Shown: piece by piece, positions 3,091 through 33,511 of the stretch
Layout: each line of letters opens with the position of its first letter
How positions within the stretch are numbered: the stretch's first letter is position 1
Source: Candidatus Micrarchaeota archaeon CG10_big_fil_rev_8_21_14_0_10_45_29
Lineage (GTDB): Archaea; Micrarchaeota; Micrarchaeia; Anstonellales; Anstonellaceae
Direction: 5' to 3'
DNA length: 33,511 bases
NCBI GenBank assembly: GCA_002778455.1
Contig: PFCD01000001.1
Location: 120,125-153,635, forward strand
Notes under the pieces: generated by a model
What the model saw: the letters and a program-made list of their open reading frames with translations, nothing else
Told to the model about the DNA's origin: nothing
Database searches by the model: none
Made by a program: the position numbers and the translations under genes

Positions 3091-3175
3091 TTATGCAGGG
3101 GGAGGGTGCAGCCATTGCTTCGCAATGTCGCAGCTCAAACTTCTTCGAAGTTTGACCATTTGAACCCTTGCATTA
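3091..3175 (-). repeat. tRNA-Leu 3'-flanking hairpin element with duplicated tRNA tail
   Basis: TTATGCAGGGGG at 3091-3102 repeats 3173-3184; hairpins CATTGC-TTC-GCAATG (3113-3127) and CAAACTTC-TTC-GAAGTTTG (3136-3154). Confidence 0.75.
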
Positions 3176-3261
3176 TGCAGGGGGTGAGATTTGAACTCAC
3201 GAACTCGCTAGGAGACAGGGTCCTAAGCCCTGCGCATTTGACCAGACTTTGCTACCCCTGC
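3176..3261 (-). tRNA. tRNA-Leu (anticodon TAG)
   Basis: GCAGGGG/CCCCTGC acceptor, anticodon loop CTTAGGA, long variable arm, GTTCAAATC T-loop. Confidence 0.93.
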
Positions 3262-3373
3262 AAAAAGTTTATTGCCTCATGAGGTAAAAAACCTTTGCAA
3301 AAGAAAAACCCCTTCTTTTTGCAATAAAATATGTATGTGTTAGCATGAATAACAATATGTTTTTATACCCGCA

Positions 3374-17698: not shown

Positions 17699-17759
17699 GC
17701 GGTTGAACGGCTCTTTTTGCGAAGCAAAAAGTAGTTGGGGCGAGAATAATAATGAGCGC
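17699..17759 (-). repeat. tRNA-Glu 3'-flanking hairpin element
   Basis: CTTTTTGC-GAA-GCAAAAAG hairpin (17713-17731) and inverted copy of the tRNA tail (GTTGGGGCG). Confidence 0.65.
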
Positions 17760-17832
17760 TCCCAACGGGATTTGAACCCGTGCTTCAGCCTTGAGAGGGC
17801 TGCGTCCTTGACCGGGCTAGACGATGGGAGCA
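17760..17832 (-). tRNA. tRNA-Glu (anticodon CTC); ends approximate by 1-2 nt
   Basis: GCTCCCA/TGGGAGC acceptor, loop CTCTCAA, GGGTTCAAATCCC T-arm. Confidence 0.92.
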
Positions 17833-29754: not shown

Positions 29755-29839
29755 CGCCTAGACGGGGTGGACAGATGCGAAGCATCTGGACAACTTTTTT
29801 TGCTAAAGCAAAAAATAGTCTTGGCGTGAGCAAAGCGAA
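29755..29839 (-). repeat. tRNA-Asp 3'-flanking hairpin element with duplicated tRNA tail
   Basis: CGCCTAGACGGGG at 29755-29767 repeats 29840-29852; hairpins 29772-29788, 29796-29815, 29823-29843. Confidence 0.82.
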
Positions 29840-29912
29840 CGCCTAGACGGGGATTCGAACCCCGGTCGCCGGAGTGACAGTCCGGAATGCTAGACCACTA
29901 CACTATCTAGGC
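29840..29912 (-). tRNA. tRNA-Asp (anticodon GTC)
   Basis: GCCTAGA/TCTAGGC acceptor, loop CTGTCAC, GGGGTTCGAATCCCC. Confidence 0.95.
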
Positions 29913-32590: not shown

Positions 32591-33202
32591 ATGAGAATTT
32601 TTATCGCAATCCCTTTGCCTGAAGAAATAAAGGCGCATCTTCTCTCTTTGCAGCAAAAGCTCTCCTCTTCTTACACTGCCCCCAAAATAGGCGATTCGCG
32701 CCCCTATAACCCAAAAGGCTATTTGCAAAACCCAAAAAGCCCCTGGCGCCCCTCAAAAGAGGAACATATGCACCTTACTTTGCAATTTTTGGGAGATGAG
32801 GCAACTCTTCACCAAACCGAGAGAATAAAGGAGAAAATGAGGGAAATCTCCTCAAGTGCCTCTCCTTTTCAAATAGAATGCACAAATGTTGGCGCTTTTC
32901 CAAATGCAAAAAATGCGCGGGTTTTATGGGTTGGCGCAAAAGGGGAAGGATTAGTTCAATTGGCAAAAAAAGTAAGGGAAGAGTGCGCAAAAGAGGGATT
33001 TTCAGAAGGCAAGCCATTTAGCGCGCATTTAACATTTGCAAGAAGCAAATTTTCCCAAGACGCTTCAAAATTTTTAGAGGAAACAAACAAAACTCCCCTA
33101 TCACTTTCATGGATTGCAAATTCATTTTGCCTTATGCAAAGCGATGAAATATTAGGCGGGCATGAGCACAATTTGCTTGAGAAATTTGAGTTGAAAAAAT
33201 AG
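32591..33202 (+). CDS. thpR: RNA 2',3'-cyclic phosphodiesterase (2'-5' RNA ligase family)
   Basis: MRIFIAIPLPEEIK, HLTLQFLG and HLTFAR (two HxTx motifs). Confidence 0.93.
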   Translation: MRIFIAIPLPEEIKAHLLSLQQKLSSSYTAPKIGDSRPYNPKGYLQNPKSPWRPSKEEHMHLTLQFLGDEATLHQTERIKEKMREISSSASPFQIECTNVGAFPNAKNARVLWVGAKGEGLVQLAKKVREECAKEGFSEGKPFSAHLTFARSKFSQDASKFLEETNKTPLSLSWIANSFCLMQSDEILGGHEHNLLEKFELKK

Positions 33203-33204
33203 AA

Positions 33205-33390
33205 CGCCGGCGGCACGGATCTCCAGCTTGCTGGAGAGACTGCCGTAAGGCGGAGCAAAGCGACGCCGGCGGCAGGATGGGCAACCGATGCGTCGGTTGA
33301 ACAGCTTGCCGACAAGCGAGCAAGAGCGAGCGCCGGCGGCAGGACAGATAGCCGAAGGCTGTCGGCCTGCCGACAAGCGAACGAAGTGAG
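33205..33390 (-). repeat. tRNA-Ser 3'-flanking tandem hairpin array with three extra tRNA-tail copies
   Basis: CGCCGGCGGCA at 33205, 33264, 33331 plus the genuine tail at 33391; paired stems in every unit. Confidence 0.9.
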
Positions 33391-33511
33391 CGCCGGCGGC
33401 AGGATTTGAACCTACAATCCCGTAAGGGACTGGTTTTCTTGACCCCTTTTTGGGGTGAAGCCCTTTTTTCTAAAAAGGGCTCTTCAAGACCAGCGCACTA
33501 CCAGATTATGC
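33391..33511 (-). tRNA. tRNA-Ser (anticodon TGA), 47-nt intron at about 33436-33482, 5' end beyond window
   Basis: Stem CTGGT/ACCAG, loop CTTGAA|intron|A, variable arm TCCC-TTAC-GGGA, T-arm GTAGG-TTCAAAT-CCTGC, discriminator G. Confidence 0.85.

Follow-up and report, generated by a model that had tools for sequence, protein, structure and literature searches.

tRNA genes rank with the most frequent docking sites for mobile DNA, and in archaea they are unusually split and intron-broken, a state whose origin is disputed. Palindromic repeats of the REP and MITE kind are short and gene-less and occur in many copies, and the E. coli tyrT gene is reportedly followed by distal repeats (rtT RNA), a tandem series in which each repeat carries the tRNA 3' end. 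Our literature search found no paper on the tyrT/rtT repeats and, with subscription journals mostly outside the search, none on archaeal repeat arrays at tRNA ends. The closest idea in print is the disruption of tRNAs by mobile elements in Caldiarchaeum (PMC3293823). Archaeal integrative elements leave attL/attR fragments, direct repeats of a tRNA end beside an intact tRNA, as at the Caldiarchaeum tRNA-Thr (PMC3293823) and among the Thermococcaceae fragments (PMC9897764). The A. boonei casposase makes a 14-15 bp duplication that starts 8 bp downstream of TCAAATC (PMC6614799). Integron attC arrays and CALINs are made of tandem palindromic sites, variable inside, in which one strand is preferred via its folded shape (PMC8946536). 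Archaeal BHB tRNA introns at noncanonical positions combine a boundary at nt 59/60 with chains of hairpins.

We analysed 33,511 nt (the window), bases 120125-153635 of contig C6 in a 1.15-Mb MAG (G000, 84.65% complete) of an uncultured dwarf archaeon; a radical-SAM protein of the window matches a named Candidatus Micrarchaeota MAG. Like REP- and MITE-like repeats, the modules found here are short gene-less palindromes, but they are bound to tRNA ends and carry direct and inverted copies of their target. The E. coli repeats are said to occupy one locus and to have longer units, whereas here many tRNAs are involved, with an inverted tail copy and variable hairpins. As with att scars, a direct repeat of the tRNA end accompanies a restored tRNA; attL/attR fragments, however, flank kilobases of DNA with genes, whereas no element gene, integrase included, lay between the repeats here, which enclose tandem hairpins of 46-113 nt per cleaned unit (about 200 nt at one other locus, L069) plus the inverted end copy. 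Casposons share duplications of 14-15 bp near tRNA 3' ends, but the modules have neither genes nor terminal inverted repeats (none at the ends of the cleaned units, both ends compared by eye), and the casposon assignment was rejected because the duplication here starts at nt 59-61, inside the T-loop motif, and is a different stretch (PMC6614799). The likeness to attC, a structured site with a strand preference, is one of shape and not of recombination: unlike integron cassettes the modules are gene-less, their palindrome arms copy the local tRNA, and membership of attC was rejected, RYYYAAC/GTTRRRY core pairs being present in 2 of 28 units. BHB introns share the boundary and the hairpin chains, but the tRNA here is already complete.

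The modules suggest a repeat, or a mini mobile element, of a kind not described before, which accumulates on tRNA genes and leaves them intact. A gene-less module that folds on one strand and copies the tRNA end with a boundary at nt 59/60 would offer a testable route to tRNA fragments, partial copies and possibly introns, and would be a case of archaeal single-strand hairpin recombination. Such modules are also expected to confuse tRNA annotation and assembly in these genomes.

Tail copies behind tRNA-Ser(UGA) and other tRNA genes

The tRNA-Ser(UGA) gene at the right end of the window adjoins an array of three units (Table 1). At full length the repeat measures 14 nt and is the complement of tRNA nt 60-73, which comprise the last T-loop base, the 3' sides of the T-stem and the acceptor, and the discriminator; the copy farthest from the gene is an 11-nt match. 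A first-pass annotation had claimed four copies at these starts, spaced 59, 67 and 60 nt, with outer stems, GA/GA hairpins and second hairpins between them, and all were found in the sequence as given. A run of N just past the window edge cuts the 5' end of the gene, and for this reason ARAGORN misses it and the tRNA covariance model scores it weakly. A 48-nt stretch at its intron shares 90% identity with the corresponding region of tRNA-Gly(UCC) (L003 1500-1550), a near-identity that suggests a recent intron transfer.

Table 1 Features of the tRNA-Ser(UGA) and tRNA-Asp units in the window
Feature	Position	Strand	Sequence or remark
Distal tRNA-Asp tail copy, second instance in window	29755-29767	+	CGCCTAGACGGGG
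tRNA-Asp unit	29768-29839	+	hairpin 1, then a T-tract hairpin 2, an inverted tail and a GA cap (TGAGCAAAGCGAA)
T-rich stretch past array	33196-33204	-	putative original tRNA trailer/terminator
Distal degenerate tRNA-Ser tail copy	33205-33219	+	CGCCGGCGGCACGGA
Unit 1 hairpin 1	33220-33237	+	TCTCCAG-CTTG-CTGGAGA, then GA
Unit 1 inverted tail copy	33240-33245	+	CTGCCG
Unit 1 cap	33246-33263	+	GGCG-GA-GC-AAA-GC-GA, tandem GA mismatches; CGCC of next tail copy completes stem
Tail copy 2	33264-33277	+	CGCCGGCGGCAGGA
Unit 2 hairpin 1	33278-33303	+	TGGGCAACCGATGCGTCGGTTGAACA; one mismatch to copy at second tRNA-Ser
Unit 2 inverted tail copy	33305-33311	+	CTTGCCG, one G-T wobble
Unit 2 cap	33312-33330	+	ACAAGCGAGCAAGAGCGAG (GC-GA-GC-AAGA-GC-GA-GC)
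Tail copy 3	33331-33344	+	CGCCGGCGGCAGGA
Unit 3 hairpin 1	33345-33365	+	AGCC-GAA-GGCT core; identical unit at second tRNA-Ser
Unit 3 inverted tail copy	33366-33372	+	CCTGCCG
Unit 3 cap	33373-33390	+	ACAAGCGAACGAAGTGAG (GC-GA-AC-GAA-GT-GA-GC)
tRNA-Ser(UGA)	33391-33511	-	5' end beyond window; tail nt 73-60 = 33391-33404
Canonical tRNA-Ser(UGA) intron	33436-33482	-	between nt 37 and 38; BHB helix CUUG/CAAG, read by eye

A genome search revealed a second array, of three units, at tRNA-Ser(CGA) on contig C1, with two units common to the window array. The DNA between this second array and a Cdc48-like gene contains a large inverted repeat (L002 1325-1420) that reads CCTAAAC...GTTTTAGG and includes a GGGGGG/CCCCCC hairpin.

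Recurrence of tails was scored across the genome with 12-mers of each tRNA's own tail, allowing at most one mismatch within 300 nt; 39 readable tRNA genes were examined, 38 of which were testable. The own tail recurred downstream of 12 of these 38 genes and upstream of none (0/38), internal tRNA 12-mers did not recur (0/114), and tails of other tRNAs did so in 5 of 1326 comparisons, from which it follows that the recurrence is not due to chance. One to three modules follow nearly one third of the examined tRNA genes, each module closing with an exact repeat of the final 13-14 nt of its tRNA. Among the 12 is tRNA-Asp (29840-29912) in the same window, and both its unit and the genome-wide spread had been missed by the first-pass annotation, which had named the absence of such units from other tRNA genes and related genomes as grounds for refutation; units are present at both.

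Two further tRNA genes of the window have degenerate relatives of the units behind them: a decayed tail copy at tRNA-Leu (3094-3262), and an inverted tail with a T-tract hairpin, without the distal tail, at tRNA-Glu (17710-17831). Upstream of intact genes, partial copies of 5' or internal tRNA segments (nt 1-21, 21-35, 1-26) occur with hairpins at L068, L072, L081 and L102 of this genome and at L107 and L135 of the relative G002, their junctions lying in D-loops and anticodon loops.

An artefact of assembly or binning, for which the N gap beside a tRNA in a MAG might speak, is hardly credible, since arrays with different sequences stand on two contigs, at many tRNAs and in several independent MAGs. 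The second contig shares two of its three units with the window and the independent MAGs differ in tails and hairpins, which argues that the arrays are not an obvious product of assembly.

Unit architecture and strand preference

The architecture was directly visible in 28 cleaned units, whose hairpin boundaries were set partly by eye and which include two units of G010 C18 and the G009 unit entered by hand. On the strand complementary to the tRNA, and in the direction of the gene, the plan is R - hairpin 1 - (hairpin 2) - R' - cap - R(tRNA); R denotes nt 73-60 of the tRNA concerned, and R' an inverted copy of R. Hairpin 1 begins at the base right after R in 27 of the 28 units and is often followed by GA and a T-tract/A-tract hairpin 2. 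R' ends about 20-30 nt from the tRNA gene (up to about 40 in G010 C130), and the cap is often GYGA-stem-GAA-stem-GARC or a piece of the native trailer. In the tail type the duplicated piece starts at nt 59-61 every time; its far end varies, falling at nt 73 or about 10-20 nt into the trailer (L089, G002 C2:106546, G010 C130), so the duplication is not a clean target-site duplication.

R' is specific to the local tail. When scored by DNA duplex energies on the tRNA-complementary strand, the fit of R' to its own tail ranked first at 10 of 14 loci (permutation p=5e-5), and tRNAs without duplicates had no own-tail fit of this kind. The match was weak in G008 C29 and G028. An ungapped antitail score understates matches with central mismatches.

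The first-pass annotation had proposed selection on structure from changing sequence with kept pairing, and larger numbers bear this out. Hairpin 1 next to tail copies took 27 distinct sequences, and covariation was addressed with arm-swap and shuffle tests in place of R-scape; MAFFT could not align hairpin 1. The summed hairpin 1 score was 402 compared to 144 +/- 17 in shuffles, a null in which single units are shuffled, and 136 of 162 basal pairs were formed compared to at most 99 in 20,000 arm swaps, with the hairpins picked by best pairing.

That the structure is favoured on the strand complementary to the tRNA, as had also been proposed, holds beyond the tRNA-Ser locus. On this strand the non-Watson-Crick positions of hairpin 1 were A-G (21), G-T (11), A-A (5), G-G (4), A-C (3) and C-T (3), and GA flanked both sides of the stem in 14 of 27. 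Purine-purine mismatches outnumbered pyrimidine-pyrimidine ones 30 to 3 (p=1e-6), G-T outnumbered A-C 11 to 3 (p=0.057), and the DNA folding energy was lower on this strand in 24 of 28 units (Wilcoxon p=5e-5) compared to only 18 of 28 with RNA parameters (p=0.07); the units are partly homologous and not fully independent, so these p values are optimistic, although their direction is consistent.

The strand evidence does not separate single-stranded DNA from antisense RNA. Transcription of the array from the + strand could yield structured RNAs that each include 14 nt complementary to the 3' end of the tRNA and that might serve, for instance, as decoys or to regulate tRNA processing. We regard this as unlikely. 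In its favour, the structure lies on the strand that complements the tRNA, the loops are GNA/GNRA-like, and the upstream neighbour in the window, a LigT-like gene on the + strand, makes read-through possible; the strand bias, however, is weaker with RNA than with DNA parameters, no common promoter was seen by eye next to the arrays, and arrays also occur on a degenerate tRNA remnant and away from tRNAs. An Rfam scan of eight loci, both Ser arrays among them, matched tRNA only, which also counts against such RNAs, and a known Rfam family was dropped as a candidate on this result.

The boundary at nt 59/60 raises another alternative, in which the unit and the proximal tail would be removed as a tRNA intron by splicing at the T-loop, leaving the distal tail as the true 3' exon. 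A broad specificity has been reported for a Micrarchaeota splicing endonuclease (PMC12397907), two tRNAs of G001, another member of the family, have true 59/60 insertions able to pair their ends with the T-loop in a BHB helix, and a 4-bp BHB helix is possible in 6 of the 28 units, all from G000, compared to about 0.4 expected. The other 22 units, including all 16 outside G000 (0/16), are unable to form the helix; moreover, the tRNA is complete before the array and the conserved structure lies on the strand other than that of the pre-tRNA. Introns of this kind are therefore quite improbable as an account of the arrays, and a general BHB intron at 59/60 was rejected because T-loop nt 54-57 can form the 4-bp helix with the insert 3' end in those six only, while some G000 units may also be spliceable. 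The insertions at nt 59/60 in G001 (C7:32116 and C7:11701) end in TGAA-NN, and one has an internal tandem repeat.

Arrays in relatives and sharing of hairpins

At least six genera of the order have similar arrays, and one such array lies away from any tRNA. The sampled genomes are MAGs, none of the others belonging to the same genus as G000, and further arrays were sought by cap-motif search and DNA search of 84 genomes of the order. The tail recurrence test was positive for 2 of 40 tRNAs in G002, 2 of 17 in G008 and 2 of 26 in G050, and for none in G001 (36 tRNAs), G004 (18) or G006 (10 examined). G010 carries tRNA arrays of three and two units, one array on a degenerate tRNA-Ser remnant, and one with five Ser tails that is flanked by unrelated genes and has no tRNA gene nearby. 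In G028, from another family, two identical 81-nt units were found, and G009 also has an array. G006 has an array-free tRNA-Ser beside the same ferredoxin-like sequence. An exact cap search across the phylum gave matches in this order only. Scans of viral contigs for arrays gave coding or unrelated matches only, and virus-borne arrays were dropped as a candidate.

Parts of the units are shared between loci. Three G010 arrays whose tails differ have the hairpin 1 TCGGCAAC-NGCN-GTTGCCGA in common, and G028 has it in a slightly altered form. In G008 the array behind one tRNA (C23) holds, at a non-proximal position, the last 11 nt of the tail of another tRNA (C29) together with 15 nt from that tRNA's unit. 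Of 26 cap-motif matches in the order, 10 show the R/R' plan, compared to 1.6% of random positions, and some of these matches sit with the same geometry at tRNA gene 5' ends, which argues for a process at the level of DNA rather than of transcripts. The sharing of hairpins and caps across loci implies that hairpins and caps travel and that R and R' are local.

Two tyrosine recombinases of G000 (PF00589; C3:43962-44453 and C12:2636-3118) are candidate enzymes. Both adjoin tRNA genes, and one reading frame runs into a tRNA 3' end, as in integrated archaeal elements; in the incomplete genome G028 an array is present and no PF00589 match was found. Integrase genes beside tRNAs are also what remnants of conventional integrative elements or casposons might leave, the att site or target-site duplication being the tRNA 3' end. 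Such remnants have a precedent in Caldiarchaeum (PMC3293823) and in the 14-15 bp duplicated by casposase near tRNA 3' ends (PMC6614799). They are nevertheless very improbable here: the A. boonei duplication starts 8 bp after TCAAATC and the present one inside that motif, terminal inverted repeats were not seen, the intervening DNA is gene-less and measures 46-113 nt in the cleaned units (up to about 200 nt at one other locus), and the far boundary of the duplication varies. RVT_1 had no match in G000, G010, G028 or G001 and one in G008, most of these genomes being incomplete, and copying of the tRNA by reverse transcriptase was dropped on this basis.

Origin of the modules and other elements at tRNA ends

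We favour, with a probability of roughly 0.45, the reading that the modules are a non-autonomous palindromic family gained repeatedly at tRNA ends via a step on folded single-stranded DNA. Module gain would be a recombination or copying step on the folded single-stranded template strand of the tRNA, resembling the use of integron attC sites or HUH-processed palindromes, and the recombinase, from the host or a mobile element, would probably act in trans. Every gain would leave a complete nt 60-73 beside the tRNA body, so that the tRNA would stay functional, gains would be tolerated, arrays would build up and the process would be repeatable. The local R may serve as template for R' in fold-back synthesis, which would explain the origin of R', with hairpin 1 and the cap carried between loci. 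Counting for insertion are the genome-wide duplication of the own tail, the fixed start at nt 59-61, the fit of R' to its own tail, the flush position of hairpin 1, the shared hairpins, the mixed array of G008, the G010 array away from tRNA genes, the cap-motif matches with the R/R' plan, the array-free tRNA-Ser of G006, the two tyrosine recombinases next to tRNA genes and the strand bias. Against it, the modules have been tied to no recombinase, nick site or excised circle, and a strand bias would also follow from antisense RNA. The varying far end of the duplication, the weak R' match in G008 C29 and G028, and the array in the incomplete G028 with no PF00589 match speak against it as well.

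Fold-back (snap-back) synthesis could also act without a dedicated enzyme. The modules would then be scars of replication or repair, in which template switching at hairpin-rich trailers and restart in the T-loop make the inverted tail and copy nearby hairpins, and selection merely removes events that break the tRNA. R' does repeat the local R in inverted form, the duplication takes in the trailer along with the tail at L089, G002 C2:106546 and G010 C130, and upstream of tRNAs there are also hairpin-bearing partial copies of 5' and internal tRNA segments. We consider scars somewhat unlikely, however, as the restart point is always nt 59-61, the cap and hairpin 1 are common to different loci, genera and families, and the strand-biased mismatches suggest lasting selection.

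A wider claim can be put forward tentatively: the modules may be an undescribed class of mobile or self-amplifying single-stranded DNA hairpin modules that harmlessly parasitise tRNA gene ends, each insertion writing a direct and an inverted copy of the target and thereby giving tandem arrays, in a CRISPR- or integron-like layout, at many tRNAs of a whole archaeal order.

Other insertions and elements were encountered at tRNA genes. The D-loop of a tRNA-Ser in G070 (C61, L040) holds an insertion. A conserved element, CCCATATGGGGAACAC-N13-GTCCCCCTGAGGGTTTCACCCCCT, is present in G000 (L190, L193, L173, L198), G002 (L176), G012 (L177, L187), G014 (L175) and G008 (L174), and in several genomes it comes immediately after tRNA nt 73. 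It had no Rfam match, also stands alone after AT-rich, promoter-like DNA (at L187 in two copies on opposite strands), and may be a small RNA gene or a repeat. A relative of this element is tandemly repeated directly behind tRNA genes in G001 (C7:50000-57000, L262).
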